A stretch of 64,000 bases of DNA, taken from assembly GCF_029023865.1 (NCBI RefSeq), contig NZ_CP118969.1, positions 2,418,001 through 2,482,000 of the forward strand, given 5' to 3'. Shown here piece by piece: positions 3,421 through 15,697 of this stretch. Made by a program: the position numbers and the translations under genes. How positions within the stretch are numbered: the first letter of the stretch is position 1; each line of letters starts with the position of its first letter. Source of the stretch: Lactococcus lactis (GTDB lineage Bacteria; Bacillota; Bacilli; Lactobacillales; Streptococcaceae). The notes beneath the pieces are model-generated. The model was not told the DNA's origin, searched no databases, and saw only the letters and a list, made by a program, of their open reading frames with translations.

Positions 3421-4887
3421 TTGGAAAATTCTTCAAACTCAACTACTGAGACGCAAGTAAAACGCGGCTTAAAATCACGCCATGTTTCCATGATTGCCCT
3501 TGGCGGAACAATCGGAACTGGATTGTTTCTGACTTCAGGCGATGTCATTCACACGGCAGGACCATTTGGTGCACTGACTGCCTATGTTCTTATCGGAGCA
3601 ATGGTTTACTTCCTCATGACATCACTTGGTGAAATGGCCACTTATTTACCCACTTCTGGTTCTTTTTCAGACTATGGAACACGTTATGTTGACCCAGCTT
3701 TTGGTTTTGCTCTAGGTTGGAATTATTGGTTGAACTGGGCAATTACCGTAGCGGTTGATTTAACAGCCGTTGCCCTTTGTATCAAATTCTGGTTACCAGA
3801 TGTTCCAAGTTGGATTTTTTCACTGATTGCCTTAATTATTGTCTTTGCAATCAATGCCTTATCAGTTAAAACTTTTGGCGAAACTGAATATTGGTTGTCA
3901 GCCATTAAAATTACTGTTGTTGTTTTATTCTTGATTATTGGTTTCTTATCTATTTTTGGAATTATGGGCGGTCATATTGACGTCGCTAAAAATCTTTCAG
4001 TTGGTAATCATGGTTTTGTCGGAGGACTTGGTAGTTTCACTACCGGCGGAGGGATTCTCGGCGTACTCTTAGTCGCTGGTTTCTCTTTCCAAGGAACAGA
4101 ATTGCTCGGAATTACAGCTGGTGAAGCTGAAAATCCTGAAAAATCAATTCCTAAAGCTATGAACTCTATCTTCTGGCGTATTCTTGTCTTTTATATCTTA
4201 TCTATCTTCGTGATGGCGGCTATCATTCCATTTACCGACCCCCACTTAGTTGGAGGAGATTCAGCTGCTCAAAGCCCTTTCACAATTGTATTTGAACGTG
4301 TTGGTCTCTCTATTGCAGCTTCTATCATGAACGCCGTTGTTTTAACTTCTGTCGTTTCAGCAGCAAACTCTGGAATGTATGCCTCTACTCGGATGCTTTA
4401 TTCACTAGCTAAAGATGGTGGCGCACCAAAGATTTTCTCAAAAACTTCAAAAAACGGGATTCCTTTCATTGCTTTATTAGCTACAACTGCTGTTGCTTTA
4501 CTCACATTCTTGACATCAATTTACGGAGTTAGCTTCTTTACATTCCTCGTCTCAGCCTCTGGTTTAACAGGATTTATTGCTTGGATTGGGATTGCAATTA
4601 GCCACTTCCGCTTCCGCCGCGCCTATGTCGCTCAAGGAAAAGATGTTAAAAAATTACCTTATCATGCAAAACTATTCCCATTTGGTCCAATCTTAGCCTT
4701 AATTATGACCGTTTTAGTCACACTCGGCCAAGACCCAATGCTTCTTTTTGGTAAAACTTGGGTGCAAGGTGTCATCATGTATGCCGCAATTCCACTCTTC
4801 TTCATCCTTTACTTGGGTTATAAATTTAAAAACAAAACGAAACTTATCCCCCTTAAAGAGGTTGATTTAAGTCGTCATAAAGATTAA
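3421..4887 (+). CDS. lysP: Lysine-specific amino acid permease
   Basis: A 12-segment APC-family amino acid permease of about 488 residues. The N-terminus carries LKSRHVSMIALGGTIGTGLF, the first-helix signature of LysP-like permeases, and GFSFQGTELLGITAGEAENP follows in the middle. It imports lysine with protons across the membrane. The lysine riboswitch upstream fixes the substrate. Two TTG starts are possible. The TTG at 3421 follows AGGGAG and gives an N-terminal tail as long as that of E. coli LysP, so it is preferred; the TTG at 3367 follows AGGAG and would add 18 residues. Confidence 0.93.
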   Translation: MENSSNSTTETQVKRGLKSRHVSMIALGGTIGTGLFLTSGDVIHTAGPFGALTAYVLIGAMVYFLMTSLGEMATYLPTSGSFSDYGTRYVDPAFGFALGWNYWLNWAITVAVDLTAVALCIKFWLPDVPSWIFSLIALIIVFAINALSVKTFGETEYWLSAIKITVVVLFLIIGFLSIFGIMGGHIDVAKNLSVGNHGFVGGLGSFTTGGGILGVLLVAGFSFQGTELLGITAGEAENPEKSIPKAMNSIFWRILVFYILSIFVMAAIIPFTDPHLVGGDSAAQSPFTIVFERVGLSIAASIMNAVVLTSVVSAANSGMYASTRMLYSLAKDGGAPKIFSKTSKNGIPFIALLATTAVALLTFLTSIYGVSFFTFLVSASGLTGFIAWIGIAISHFRFRRAYVAQGKDVKKLPYHAKLFPFGPILALIMTVLVTLGQDPMLLFGKTWVQGVIMYAAIPLFFILYLGYKFKNKTKLIPLKEVDLSRHKD

Positions 4888-11889: not shown

Positions 11890-12032
11890 GACTTCCTTAC
11901 TTTATATCATTTATAAATTAACTAATTTTGAGCATTTATTCTATTATACCCTATTTCACAAGATATTACTGACAGAATTCTAAAATGAAAAAGTCTGCCA
12001 AAATTTGACAAACTTTTTTACTGACAGACGAA

Positions 12033-12197
12033 CTAATCTTTCTGCTTAATTTTTTTCTTTTTTTCCTTCAATTTTTTATAAATTTTATTGTTATCTACCA
12101 AAACTTTACTTTCATTATTTTTAAAAGAATTTTGGAGTTGTTCAACCTCCCGAAAAATATCACTTTTAGGTTGAGGGGCAGGTGTAATTACTGACAT
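12033..12197 (-). CDS. Small lysine-rich hypothetical protein, 54 residues
   Basis: An ORF of 54 codons starting MSVITPAPQPKSDIF, with AAGGAGA just before the ATG at 12197. The N-terminus is proline-rich. The C-terminal half is a strongly basic helix (IYKKLKEKKKKIKQKD), which would favour nucleic-acid or membrane contact. No family recognised. It lies between the phosphatase and the ABC locus on the same strand and ends close to a repeat with ACTGACAGA arms. Confidence 0.5.
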   Translation of the reverse strand: MSVITPAPQPKSDIFREVEQLQNSFKNNESKVLVDNNKIYKKLKEKKKKIKQKD

Positions 12198-12373
12198 AAG
12201 TTCTCCTTATCTTTCATTCGACTTATCTCTTAATCGGAAACAATTATTAGAAAATATATAAACCAAATAATGTAGTATTATTTCGCATTAATTCCCTTTC
12301 ACTAAAAAAATACATCCATATAACCGATTTCTTTTGCCGCTTCATCAAAATTTGTCACCAAAGTCAGTCCTTT

Positions 12374-12919
12374 TTAGGACAATAGATAAGCTTGGTCACA
12401 GAAATGTTCAATTTCCTTGAGATTGTGTGAGGTTAATAAAACAATTTTTTCTTGAGCGATTTTTTTCACTTCTTCATAAACTAGGGCTTTTTTGGAAACG
12501 TCAAGCCCACTGAATAGCTCGTCAATGATTAAAATATCACAGTCGATAGAAAATGATAAAATTGTCGCAAAAAGCTCTTTCATTCCTAAAGAAAATTGGC
12601 CAATTCTCTTTTTCGCAAATTTATCTGCACCAAAAGTAAGACTTAACTCTCTTGCTCTATCCTGTTCACTATTTTTCAAAATTTTAAAATAATCATGCAT
12701 TTTTAAACTTTCTTCAAAAGATTCTACATCGGGAAGATAAGCGACACGCCCATTTTCTATTTCTCCTTGAGAAAATCCAATTTCTCCTGAAAGAATGCCG
12801 AAAAGTGTACTTTTCCCAATCCCATTTCGTCCAATCAGACCGTACAAACCATTTTCAGAAATCTCAAAATTAAGCGGAGCAATGTCTGGTATCTTTAAAT
12901 TTTTTATTTTTAATATCAT
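12374..12919 (-). CDS. ABC transporter ATP-binding protein, C-terminally truncated
   Basis: 181 residues with a full set of ATPase motifs: Walker A GRNGIGKST (about 30-38), signature FSLGMKE (about 114), Walker B CDILIIDEL (about 134) and the switch histidine in TSHNLKE. It powers the permease encoded just upstream, whose stop overlaps its ATG by 4 bases. The reading frame continues after the TAA for 23 more plausible codons (KGLTLVTNFDEAAKEIGY and onward to a TAG at 12302), so a single AAA-to-TAA change may have shortened it. All catalytic motifs are kept, so it may still work. Confidence 0.85.
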   Translation of the reverse strand: MILKIKNLKIPDIAPLNFEISENGLYGLIGRNGIGKSTLFGILSGEIGFSQGEIENGRVAYLPDVESFEESLKMHDYFKILKNSEQDRARELSLTFGADKFAKKRIGQFSLGMKELFATILSFSIDCDILIIDELFSGLDVSKKALVYEEVKKIAQEKIVLLTSHNLKEIEHFCDQAYLLS

Positions 12920-14100
12920 GAGATTCTCCTTGTTTTTTGATTTTTAATAATGAAGACAGAGATGAGCAAAAATAATACACTTAAAGAAAGTAGATAGCCA
13001 GCCCCGATTAATATAGAATATTTTCCAAAAAGAGCACTAGGATTTCCAAAAAGTTTTAGAGGTTCAAGATAAGAAAGTGGCACAAAACGTCTAATTGAAA
13101 TTATCCAAGAAACATTTCCTATCATCGAATATCCCATGACAAATAGAGCTATAACCCCAACAACAACCATACTCCGTTTTACAAAAACAGAAATCAAGGC
13201 ACCTAATGAAGCCAAGAAAAAGATGACAAAAAACAGATAGAGGATACTTCCTAAATCCAAAATTCCATTTGGAATTGTGAGATTAGTCAAAGTAAATCCT
13301 GTTTTCAAATCCGAATCACCAAGATAGGCGGGATAATTCCATGCTCCAAAACCATTCACCACCCCAATTACCAGAAAATAAATGATACTAGAAATAATAA
13401 TCCAAGCAAAGGTCGCTAAAGTTCCAGATAAAACTTTTATAATTAAATTTTTCTGCAAATCAATTCCCGCAAATCGATAAAATCTGTTTTCTTTTGATTC
13501 ATAACTAGTGGCGACAAGGATTGAAACCATGGAAGCAAATAAGACAATGAATAGACTACTCGTTAAAATTGGAATGAACTGCTGATGAAAATTTCCAAAA
13601 GCATGAGATTGCATGGTAGGCATTGCTTCAAAATCTAACTTTCTCTCTTGAACTGTCTTGATATACTTAATTTCTGCTTTCAGGAATTTATCTTGACCAG
13701 ATGATGATTGGTTACCATTTTGTTTAAAATACAACTGGTCAATTTCTTTTTGTAAATGATAATATTCATTAATGTCATTGACGCCTATAGCTGCGATTTG
13801 TTTTTGATAGATGTTATCTTTTTGCTTTAAGTCACTCAATGTATTATTTAGATTATCATCTTCTGCCTTCACTTTTGTGGTTTTTAGGCTTTCTTCAGTA
13901 GTTTCAATGTTATCCTGAACTGATTTTTCATTAGTCTGTACCTCTTGAACAAGGCTAGTGATGTTATTTTTAAAAATATTAGTAAAAGAAATTGTATTAT
14001 ATACACTATAAACTATGATTAAGGAAGAAATCAAAGCTAATAAGTATCTGTTTCTTTTGTTTAGAATAAACTTTTTTAATTCAAATTTGAAGTATTTCAT
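12916..14100 (-). CDS. ABC-2 type permease with large extracellular coiled-coil loop
   Basis: 394 residues. One membrane segment at about 19-37 is followed by a polar, coiled-coil-rich extracellular part (about 45-170, with QTNEKSVQDNIETTEESLKT) and then five further membrane segments between about 175 and 390. This layout fits bacteriocin or peptide export and immunity permeases. It forms an operon with the ATPase gene (4-bp overlap) and follows the secreted-peptide gene after a hairpin. The substrate is inferred, not shown, to be the neighbouring peptide. Confidence 0.8.
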   Translation of the reverse strand: MKYFKFELKKFILNKRNRYLLALISSLIIVYSVYNTISFTNIFKNNITSLVQEVQTNEKSVQDNIETTEESLKTTKVKAEDDNLNNTLSDLKQKDNIYQKQIAAIGVNDINEYYHLQKEIDQLYFKQNGNQSSSGQDKFLKAEIKYIKTVQERKLDFEAMPTMQSHAFGNFHQQFIPILTSSLFIVLFASMVSILVATSYESKENRFYRFAGIDLQKNLIIKVLSGTLATFAWIIISSIIYFLVIGVVNGFGAWNYPAYLGDSDLKTGFTLTNLTIPNGILDLGSILYLFFVIFFLASLGALISVFVKRSMVVVGVIALFVMGYSMIGNVSWIISIRRFVPLSYLEPLKLFGNPSALFGKYSILIGAGYLLSLSVLFLLISVFIIKNQKTRRIS

Positions 14101-14131
14101 TTAATCACCTCTCAATCAAAAATAATCATTA

Positions 14132-14163
14132 AATAGGAGTAAGTGAGGTAGCTTACTCCTATT
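14132..14163 (-). terminator. Hairpin between peptide gene and ABC genes (attenuator)
   Basis: A 12-bp stem (AATAGGAGTAAG with CTTACTCCTATT) starts 4 bases after the peptide stop. On the minus strand it is followed by a mixed T-rich tract rather than a clean T-run, so partial read-through into the ABC genes is likely. It would keep the peptide in excess over the transporter. Confidence 0.55.
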
Positions 14164-14166
14164 CCA

Positions 14167-14457
14167 TCAATAATGATAATAAGTAGTTACTTGTTTTGCC
14201 GGTTGACTTTGTCCGACAGAATTTACTACCGTGTAGTAAATTGTACTTGTGGTGGTTGTATAAGAACCTCCATGAAGGATATTCACATAATCATAATAAT
14301 CCGTTGTTCCTGTAGAAACATTATTTAGATAGTAAGTAACTGAACTTGTTTTTACATAGGTGACTTGAGTCGCAGATACAGAAGTTACCCCTATCGCACC
14401 TGTCGTAACAAGTAAAGTTGATAAGACAAAGATTTGTTTTTTCAAATTCATTTTCAT
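14167..14457 (-). CDS. Secreted Tyr/Thr-rich peptide, candidate bacteriocin (lactococcin 972-like)
   Basis: 96 residues. A Sec signal peptide covers residues 1-29 (two Lys, hydrophobic core FVLSTLLVTTGAIGV, cleavage after SVSA). The mature 67-residue peptide has no Cys or Trp and is very rich in Tyr, Thr, Ser and Val, ending KQVTTYYHY. Size, Sec leader, a central His-Gly-Gly-Ser patch, an aromatic C-terminus and a partner ABC system loosely recall lactococcin 972-family peptides, but sequence similarity is weak. AGAGG precedes the ATG. It lies between an Rgg-type regulator and ABC genes. Other options are a wall-associated adhesin fragment or a signalling precursor. Confidence 0.65.
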   Translation of the reverse strand: MKMNLKKQIFVLSTLLVTTGAIGVTSVSATQVTYVKTSSVTYYLNNVSTGTTDYYDYVNILHGGSYTTTTSTIYYTVVNSVGQSQPAKQVTTYYHY

Positions 14458-14479
14458 AATTTACCTCTTTCTGCCCAAA

Positions 14480-14668
14480 TTCAGAAAGAAATTATCTTTT
14501 CTGAATCAAGCTGATGATATTTTTCTCATGTTGAGAGCTTCCTTTCATTTTTTACTTTGTTTTCTTGGCTGCGCTCAGTAGCTTGCGAATTTGTCCATTG
14601 GTTTTTCCTCGTTTGTTTTTATTTTTGTCTCCTTAACTTTATTGTAGCACCGATTTCGAAAGCACAAA
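14480..14668 (-). promoter_or_regulatory. Promoter and structured leader of the secreted-peptide gene
   Basis: An extended -10 (TGCTACAAT, core at 14641-14646) follows a small palindrome TTTCGAAA that could be a regulator site. The roughly 180-base leader carries AAGGAGAC and GAGGAAAAACC before tiny frames (one is MDKFASY), and a hairpin of TTCAGAAA with TTTCTGAA close to the real Shine-Dalgarno. The long leader suggests control after initiation. A terminator formed by 11-bp arms at 14671-14694 overlaps the stop of the upstream rgg gene and isolates this promoter. Confidence 0.45.
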
Positions 14669-14676
14669 AAAAAGAT

Positions 14677-15561
14677 TCAAATTGAATCTTTTCCTAGAAT
14701 ATCACTTAACCATTGAGGAAAATTATAGTTTTTCACATATTTATCATAGAGTTTTTGGTAGGTTTTTGCTAAATTTATACTTCCTTCCCAATCAAAAATT
14801 TCGATGACCTTTTTCATGCTATCAATTCCCAGAAGTCGTTCTTCGCCTTGACCATAAAAAATACAATAATAACCTTTAGTAAAGCGATAAATCAATCTAG
14901 AATATGCGTCTTTTTCATGACAATATGCTTTGACCAGAGCCAGACATTCTTGCGCTTCCTTTTCTTTCCCTTCTTGGATACAAGTCACTGCTCCGCGACA
15001 GGCGATTTGACAAATAATTTTGCGATAACGTGTACGATTGGCTAACCTTTGATGATGATGGCTCAAATCTTGAATAATTGCTTTTATCATTTCTGACGAA
15101 AATTGCTCAATGGTATCTGACAAAATGAGAAGTTCATAAAAACTAAATATTTCAATTCCAAAAATAAAAGAACTTAACTCAACCACTTCGTTTTCTGGCA
15201 ACTTTTCTAAGCGTGCTTTGGCACAAAGAGCAATCAAATGTTCGCCAATTTGCTCACATTGCCAGGCAATGTCTTTTAGTTCTTCAATATTATTATTCGT
15301 TGCCGCTTGGTCGATTTTACTAAATAATTCTTCGTAAAAACTATGTTTAAAATTATTGAGATAATAATCATATTCAGAAAGTTCCAAGTGAAGAAATTCA
15401 AGCAAAGCATCAATTTGATCAAGATTTAAATAACCTTCTCCACTAAAAAAACGAGAGAGACTACTTTTAGGAATTCCTGTTTTTTTGATAATTTCATTTT
15501 TCGTGATTTCTTTAGCTTCACAGAGTTCTTGAAGTTTTAAACCATAGTATTGATTAACCAT
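14677..15561 (-). CDS. Rgg/MutR-family transcriptional regulator
   Basis: 294 residues. N-terminal helix-turn-helix (LQELCEAKEITKNEIIKKTG, then IPKSSLSRFFSGEGYLNLDQ). The remaining residues are all helical, in TPR-like pairs, typical of Rgg proteins that bind short peptide pheromones. Rgg regulators usually control an adjacent secreted peptide or bacteriocin operon, and here one lies directly downstream on the same strand. No obvious SHP-type pheromone gene was seen next to it. A TATAAT precedes the gene and GGAGAG precedes the ATG. Its terminator overlaps its stop codon. Confidence 0.85.
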   Translation of the reverse strand: MVNQYYGLKLQELCEAKEITKNEIIKKTGIPKSSLSRFFSGEGYLNLDQIDALLEFLHLELSEYDYYLNNFKHSFYEELFSKIDQAATNNNIEELKDIAWQCEQIGEHLIALCAKARLEKLPENEVVELSSFIFGIEIFSFYELLILSDTIEQFSSEMIKAIIQDLSHHHQRLANRTRYRKIICQIACRGAVTCIQEGKEKEAQECLALVKAYCHEKDAYSRLIYRFTKGYYCIFYGQGEERLLGIDSMKKVIEIFDWEGSINLAKTYQKLYDKYVKNYNFPQWLSDILGKDSI

Positions 15562-15697
15562 TTGTCTTGTCTCTCCAGTCGTAACTTTATGGTCATATTA
15601 TATACTTTTTTCATTATTGTTACAACGGCAGGAATTTATGTAATATAAAAAAGCCCGTCAAGCTTTGACAAACCTTTTTACTGACAGATACTAACTG

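Follow-up and report, generated by a model that had tools for sequence, protein, structure and literature searches.

A putative Sec-exported bacteriocin and its probable cognate ABC immunity pump in an Rgg-associated gene cassette of Lactococcus lactis

Results

We analysed a 64,000-nucleotide stretch of the Lactococcus lactis genome (G000:C1:2418001-2482000; this whole stretch is called the window, and positions follow its numbering unless another locus is named). It contains a gene cassette that probably specifies a Sec-exported putative bacteriocin and a cognate ATP-binding cassette (ABC) immunity pump under Rgg control, with peptide and permease genes that appear to be swapped together as a cartridge. 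Cassettes of this kind are real and conserved, and they are not modelled in the family libraries tested. The gene order on the minus strand is mutL, ruvA, ruvB, rgg, a gene for a 96-residue peptide, an ABC-2 permease gene, an ABC ATPase gene, a gene for a 54-residue protein, ptp (a low-molecular-weight phosphatase gene), glnR, and glnA, the housekeeping genes being named by sequence recognition. An initial annotation had recognized four of these open reading frames (ORFs), rgg, peptide, permease, and ATPase, on one strand, and all four are where it placed them, on the minus strand. It overlooked the conserved gene for the 54-residue protein, an in-frame stop in the ATPase gene, a seven-codon ORF in the leader of the peptide gene, and a 48-nt repeat flanking the cassette.

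The evidence for the cartridge comes from comparisons of related cassettes. Between the window and the lactococcal genome G012, the Rgg proteins are 66% and the ATPases 75% identical, the permeases are 38% identical, and the peptides are unrelated (z 0.0). The same pattern was seen at the DNA level, where identity was 80% in the leader between rgg and the peptide gene (205 aligned bases) despite the unrelated peptides, 69% in rgg, 71% in the ATPase gene, and 76% in the small gene, with the mature peptide segment (58%; shuffled 60%) and the permease gene (62%; shuffled 60%) matching at about the level of shuffled sequences. The reverse pattern was observed with copy 1 of the cassette in the metagenome-assembled genome (MAG) G015, with Rgg 31% and the mature peptide 47% identical to those of the window (z 15.6 for the peptide). 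Against six other lactococcal-type peptides tested, the window peptide scored z 2.5 or less. Over 15 systems, mature-peptide similarity correlated with permease similarity at r 0.85 and with ATPase similarity at 0.58. The partial correlation was 0.81 for the permease given the ATPase, a value reached in 0/2000 label permutations, and −0.42 for the ATPase. Among the eight lactococcal-type systems, the corresponding correlations were 0.72 (permease) and 0.17 (ATPase). The 15 systems were drawn from the 24 intact loci of the census given below; the nine left out were S. saliviloxodontae and G228, both of them near duplicates, G179, G008, one copy in G015 with an ATPase gene cut by the contig end, and four order-search loci (G528, G307, G338, and G074). 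A mosaic pattern of cassette modules is thus evident from these alignments. Since peptide similarity follows the permease, both in the pairwise comparisons and in the correlations, the results suggest that it is the permease, not Rgg or the ATPase, that behaves as the specificity partner of the peptide.

To describe the linkage of peptide and pump, the ORF surroundings of 40 permease loci were read, with tandem permeases that share one ATPase counted as one locus; peptide genes were called by visual inspection of ORF lists, and in many cases the flank spanned 1.5 kb. From 35 permease-profile places, this census left out G027:C95, G034:C21, and G024:C41, and S. intermedius L054, which is the same locus as G272, was counted once. 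An intact Sec-type peptide gene was adjacent to the permease at 24 of the 40 loci; the gene was broken at three, not seen at 12, and located elsewhere at one. Several species thus carry the peptide gene beside genes for a dedicated pump, as expected of a Sec-dependent bacteriocin with ABC immunity, and the proposal that the gene set is kept together in other genomes held for the peptide, permease, and ATPase. It held in part for Rgg, which was seen near at least nine of the 24 intact loci and was not always present in the flanks read. Broken peptide genes were found in G007, in Streptococcus sp. DD10 (L055; start in another frame), and in S. sinensis; in the first two, the permease and ATPase are full length. 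The permease is also full length at 10 of the 12 loci at which no peptide gene was seen.

Permease matches occur in 7 of 18 Lactococcus genomes and are absent from the other 11. The permease profile matched 25 of 295 Streptococcaceae genomes at 1e-20 (it was absent from 270), and 8 of 295 Lactobacillales genomes, own genome included, at 1e-15. Searching 295 genomes with a profile of the streptococcal peptide gave hits in 11 (2.7e-38 or better), each of which is among the genomes with a permease match; one further match, in G006 (3.4e-4), lies inside a 576-residue frame and was dropped as chance. The ATPase profile found at least 79 loci in the named collection. The best 19 of these (L048-L066, worst E 8e-35) belong to Lactococcus, Streptococcus, or Streptococcaceae and include two contigs of MAG G015, a third contig of which (L071, 8e-20) is an edge fragment; judged by title and identity, the remaining matches listed, at 5e-21 or worse, resemble common ABC ATPases. 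The peptide, ATPase, permease, and small gene are also carried together on a plasmid of L. lactis KMGR2-43, and a search of plasmids with the mature L148 peptide gave no match. In G015 contig 156 (L003 / L049), two cassettes stand in tandem, each with a leader heptapeptide ORF and the second with the ATPase gene before the permease gene. A tandem permease pair with one ATPase is present in G027 (L028 / L046), where no peptide was seen and a relative of the small protein lies downstream on the other strand.

The peptide gene (14167..14457, minus strand) encodes a 96-residue precursor with a single N-terminal hydrophobic stretch at residues 9-28, found by hydropathy, and a VSA-type cleavage motif, judged by eye. 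On these two features the product carries a Sec-type signal peptide (residues ~1-29), and the mature part of ~67 residues is rich in Tyr and Thr and contains neither Cys nor Trp, in agreement with the initial annotation. The window peptide matched no NCBIfam, PHROGs, or PADLOC family and had no Pfam match over cut-off, and none of 18 family peptides searched could be assigned to a family in Pfam or NCBIfam, which covers lactococcin 972 as well. The PHROGs search covered two family peptides, and the PADLOC search covered the five proteins of the window cassette, for which generic ATPase and helix-turn-helix (HTH) matches alone were returned. A V-set_2 match of the window peptide below its cut-off (0.0067), scattered matches of the 18 peptides at 0.011 and above, and a match to a 3384-residue protein in the PDB (0.0051) were judged to be due to chance.

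A hairpin at 14131..14164 (minus strand), which by its fold and terminator-like appearance may be an attenuator or a terminator, divides the peptide gene from the ABC genes, as had been proposed: the stretch 14095-14180 that contains it folds at −26.1 kcal/mol (z −6.1), and 0/200 shuffles were as stable. Such hairpins are not universal, being present, at one or fewer of 200 shuffles as stable, in 6 of the 16 peptide-permease intergenic stretches that could be folded out of 17 taken (the window, L053, L054, L066, L149, and L150). The permease (12916..14100, minus strand; 394 residues) matches ABC2_membrane_3 at 2.9e-8 (33.6 bits, cut-off 31.6). The stretch for which a large extracellular coiled coil had been proposed is, by hydropathy, a hydrophilic segment of ~135 residues after the first membrane helix, and it probably faces outward. 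Among other Pfam matches at E up to 1, there was DUF6524 at 0.12 alone, and the permease profile found no relative in the PDB at 0.01. The permease had no match in phage records and the ATPase had one match, at 23%, in viral contigs; a phage origin of the cassette was rejected on these grounds.

The ABC ATPase gene is likewise present at the position given for it (12374..12919, minus strand; ABC_tran 6.7e-15). Its product is shortened to 181 residues by an in-frame TAA, and close relatives have 205 residues. The tail frame past the stop (12302..12373, minus strand) is still open and matches the last part of the 205-residue relatives, and the stop falls, in an alignment judged by eye, behind the core ATPase motifs. 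The loss of the last 24 residues implies that the window copy may be weakened or decaying. The 54-residue protein (MSVITPAPQPKS...), encoded at 12033..12197 (minus strand), is, by its co-occurrence with the permease, the fourth conserved gene of lactococcal cassettes: it is found in exactly those 5 of 18 Lactococcus genomes that have a close-type permease and in none of the 13 others, of which two, G007 and G008, carry a distantly related permease (28-29%). No family was found for it in Pfam, NCBIfam (best 0.041), PHROGs, or PADLOC. A weak match (35%, 1.6e-4) is present in G013:C18. In G006:C47 (L171:4741-4905), a copy of the protein is encoded without adjacent ABC genes, before a dut-like gene, and in G013:C23 the same neighbouring gene follows after the permease, ATPase, and small genes. 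Four Rfam matches were obtained, none close to the gathering score.

The regulator gene rgg (14677..15561, minus strand) encodes 294 residues with matches over cut-off to HTH_26, HTH_3, Rgg_C (1.9e-21), and RGG_Cterm (3.6e-64), i.e., an N-terminal HTH and an Rgg C-terminal domain, which bears out its assignment to the Rgg/MutR type. An inverted repeat with a T run at the end of rgg (14666..14690, minus strand), read from the sequence, is a probable terminator; one pair is changed on both sides between the window and G012, and a terminator scan made no call there. Two further claims of the initial annotation did not stand in the form given. A consensus scan found no minus-strand promoter of the peptide gene in 14458-14676, while inspection by eye revealed a candidate extended −10 element, TGCTACAAT (14641..14649, minus strand), which is kept in G012 as TGCTATAAT. 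The leader described as long and structured folds no better than chance in the window (z −1.43, 19/200 shuffles; longer stretch z −1.41, 18/200), whereas all 200 shuffles were less stable than the corresponding leader in G012 (z −2.71) and in G015 copy 1 (z −4.00); the leader of G015 copy 2 (z −1.15) does not beat all 200.

The leader contains a conserved block, AACCAATG...GCAAGCTACTGAGCGCAGC (14568..14603, minus strand), in which 26 of 36 columns are invariant in four leaders (the window, G012, and G015 twice), against a maximum of 22 in 2000 column shuffles. With one mismatch allowed, the core pattern CAATGN9GCAAGCTRCTGAG was found at four places in 3 of 335 Streptococcaceae genomes (G000, G012, and twice in G015), all of them mismatch-free and, by position, before these peptide genes. 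The reversed pattern, used as a control, gave 0 among the matches listed for the 335 Streptococcaceae genomes. Inside the block, a seven-codon ORF, MDKFASY, lies behind GAGG (14575..14598, minus strand); its counterparts are MENHASY in G012 and MKNFASC and MANFASC (the last read by eye) in G015, with GAGG or GGGG upstream. Base conservation in the leader runs beyond the stop of this ORF, so that a role of the block as RNA is as likely as a pheromone role. At three streptococcal loci (S. loxodontisalivarius and S. saliviloxodontae, whose ORFs are identical, and S784), a hydrophobic ORF of 32-33 residues lies between rgg and the peptide gene, a position like that of SHP or XIP precursors.

The cassette is flanked by imperfect direct repeats of 48 nt that are 83% identical, a terminator-like copy on the ptp side (11981..12028) and a second copy on the ruvB side (15641..15688); local alignment of the flanks scored 59, and the best of 300 shuffles 33. 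A close relative, G002 (RuvB 98%), has an empty site, with the ORFs of ruvB and ptp only 144 nt apart; thus, the cassette was inserted here or lost there. Lactococcal cassettes lie between ruvB and ptp (the window; also L. hircilactis, with pump and small gene only) or beside ruvA (G012 and G015). S784 and S. loxodontisalivarius share the arrangement ruvA, tag, rgg, peptide, permease, ATPase, cinA, recA, and in S. sanguinis and S. intermedius the cassettes adjoin fusA and gap (tag, cinA, recA, fusA, and gap were named by eye). The variable chromosomal sites, the plasmid copy, the tandem copies, and the empty G002 site were counted in favour of the bacteriocin cassette proposed above. In G012 (L018:4912-5817, 4397-4786), the cassette lies between ruvA and ruvB, the ruvB frame of 301 residues is shorter than in relatives, and a nucleotide-kinase-like ORF follows. 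Beside glnA and close to ruvB, G013:C31 (L173:1042-1710) has a 222-residue Rgg-like ORF, 54% identical to the G015 Rgg, which suggests a trace of a lost cassette.

A distant relation to lactococcin 972 had been proposed and received no support from sequence searches. Neither the window peptide (at E up to 1) nor 18 family peptides matched PF09683, and no PF09683 candidate was found in G000, though 46 of 147 family genomes have the lactococcin 972 family. Alignment of the peptide with lactococcin 972 by hhalign gave a probability of 1.6%, and a second comparison gave 11%, on the signal peptide. Membership was rejected on these results. Lactococcin 972 folds as a beta-sandwich. The large bacteriocin-associated membrane protein of the DUF1430 type, which is typical of lactococcin 972 systems, was not recognized here, the permease being over cut-off for ABC2_membrane_3 alone in Pfam. 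In the Streptococcus genome G074 (L150:1181-1354), a lactococcin 972-like frame lies right behind the permease gene, with another peptide type before the ATPase; having no in-frame signal peptide, this frame was treated as a possible relic and not as a link to lactococcin 972.

In organization the cassette resembles lactococcin 972 and the streptococcins (lcn972-orf2-orf3, scbABC), in which a Sec-type peptide of similar size is followed by a membrane protein and an ATPase with an Rgg/ComR-type regulator nearby (PMC6120550, PMC11796350, PMC4055356). It differs in a peptide for which no sequence similarity was found, in the ABC2_membrane_3 permease, in the extra lactococcal small protein, and in the seven-codon leader ORF. 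Streptococcins offer further parallels: one report describes partial clusters that retain immunity/transporter genes, hotspots, and switching beside a conserved Rgg/TprA (PMC6120550), and for scbABC another describes a ComR-type regulator and evidence for Sec export (PMC11796350). Like that ComR-controlled locus, streptococcal members have an Rgg and, at the three loci named above, the short hydrophobic ORF before the peptide gene. Unlike it, two of those regulators fall under the RGG_Cterm cut-off (29.8 and 30.7 bits vs 36.9), and a pheromone role of the ORF is putative. The ATPase resembles those of ABC-2 pumps (drrA, PmtC, and gallidermin-type protection ATPases; 3e-21 to 1e-16), far under curated cut-offs; unlike in DrrAB, PmtABCD, and lantibiotic protection systems, the permease here has a large loop and varies with the peptide.

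A further likeness is to leaderless communication peptides (LCPs) of RopB-type Rgg regulators, which are very short ORFs with a Shine-Dalgarno sequence beside rgg (PMC10518010), one of them, in L. reuteri, controlling an ABC transporter. The predicted ORF MDKFASY with its GAGG has this form. The aliphatic/aromatic composition given there for LCPs was not found in MDKFASY and its three relatives, which are mostly polar; they also differ from the LCPs in having seven residues, in running in the same direction as rgg, and in base conservation past the stop codon. The main text of that description mentions Lactococcus 0 times. A literature search with sequence fragments in full texts and over titles and abstract starts found no description of the cassette.

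Discussion

Judged from sequence comparisons, the most likely explanation, and one that we consider reasonably probable, is that the cassettes are an undescribed variant of a Sec-dependent bacteriocin with cognate ABC immunity and Rgg control. The 96-residue precursor would be exported by Sec, and the Tyr/Thr-rich peptide of ~67 residues released from it would inhibit related bacteria. The permease and ATPase would form a cognate ABC-2 pump that clears the peptide from the membrane or wall of the producer. We assign the pump to immunity and not to export because the peptide already has a Sec signal; the fact that permease type follows peptide type, together with pumps that outlive the peptide in several genomes, fits immunity. 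The adjacent Rgg may control the operon via the conserved leader, and the attenuating hairpin would lead to more peptide mRNA than pump mRNA. Peptide and permease genes may be exchanged jointly, as a cartridge whose two flanking modules, Rgg with leader and ATPase with small protein, stay fixed.

Several observations weigh against this explanation. The window has an intact peptide gene beside a truncated ATPase gene, and in L. raffinolactis G025 an intact peptide gene lies on one contig and a permease gene with a stop on another; such combinations would be costly if the peptide were lethal. They imply a peptide that does not kill its producer, silent genes, or a shortened ATPase that retains its function. 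The peptide and permease genes of S. sinensis are both frame-broken, as are the permease genes of two peptide-less loci (G013:C3 and L. piscium), and decay alone therefore accounts for some of the apparent orphan immunity. Between S. loxodontisalivarius and S. saliviloxodontae, the peptide is 100% and the permease 96% identical, i.e., there is no arms-race signature in that pair. When window-type and streptococcal-type peptides were compared with hhalign, only the signal peptide aligned, and homology of the peptides across the family is thus putative. Finally, the correlation was calculated over related systems that we chose, with the 30-residue signal cut set by hand.

It is conceivable, if doubtful, that the window copy is a decaying, non-functional remnant. 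The in-frame stop in the ATPase gene speaks for this, while the genes for Rgg, the peptide, the permease, and the small protein remain intact, and the stop lies, as judged by eye, behind the core motifs; decay in this genome would be compatible with a bacteriocin function of the family. It is unlikely that the pump exports the peptide or loads it into the envelope, so that the peptide would be a wall or surface component and not a toxin. The Tyr/Thr-rich, Cys-free composition of the window peptide is in line with such a role, and a peptide type that tracks the permease type is equally expected of an exporter. However, the peptide has a Sec-type signal of its own, the full-length permeases at 10 loci persist without a peptide, and a core envelope part would not be expected to be missing, as the system is, from 11 of the 18 Lactococcus and 270 of the 295 Streptococcaceae genomes.

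Many Rgg proteins sense peptides that are taken up by the cell, as in LCP systems (PMC10518010), and the peptide gene lies directly behind rgg. The 96-residue product could accordingly be a signal, cut outside the cell, a fragment of which is re-imported and read by the adjacent Rgg. We consider this improbable: a signal would need no dedicated pump, many loci have no Rgg within the flank read, and peptide identity does not track Rgg identity, the more similar Rgg of G012 standing beside an unrelated peptide and the more distant one of G015 beside a similar peptide. The initial view of a little-described bacteriocin/immunity or signalling locus is retained in its first part, bacteriocin/immunity remaining the best explanation, and weakened in its second. 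That the cassette is a divergent branch of the lactococcin 972 family is very unlikely, the shared gene logic of Sec peptide, membrane protein, ATPase, and regulator, the similar size, and the aromatic C terminus being opposed by the PF09683 and hhalign results and by the Pfam assignment of the permease.

A wider proposal is put forward tentatively, as a possibility: an undescribed family of Sec-secreted bacteriocins in Streptococcaceae and a few other Lactobacillales, with peptide-permease cartridges, in which the lactococcal leaderless heptapeptide MxxFASY/C would serve as an Rgg pheromone or as a translation-coupling leader ORF. If correct, the finding would add a bacteriocin family that, for the 18 peptides tested, lies outside Pfam and NCBIfam models, in lactococci and streptococci, and that offers natural matched peptide-permease pairs. 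With such pairs, the recognition of a peptide by its ABC immunity permease could be tested directly, and the conserved leader, with its defined heptapeptide, would be a candidate Rgg leader system of lactococci.

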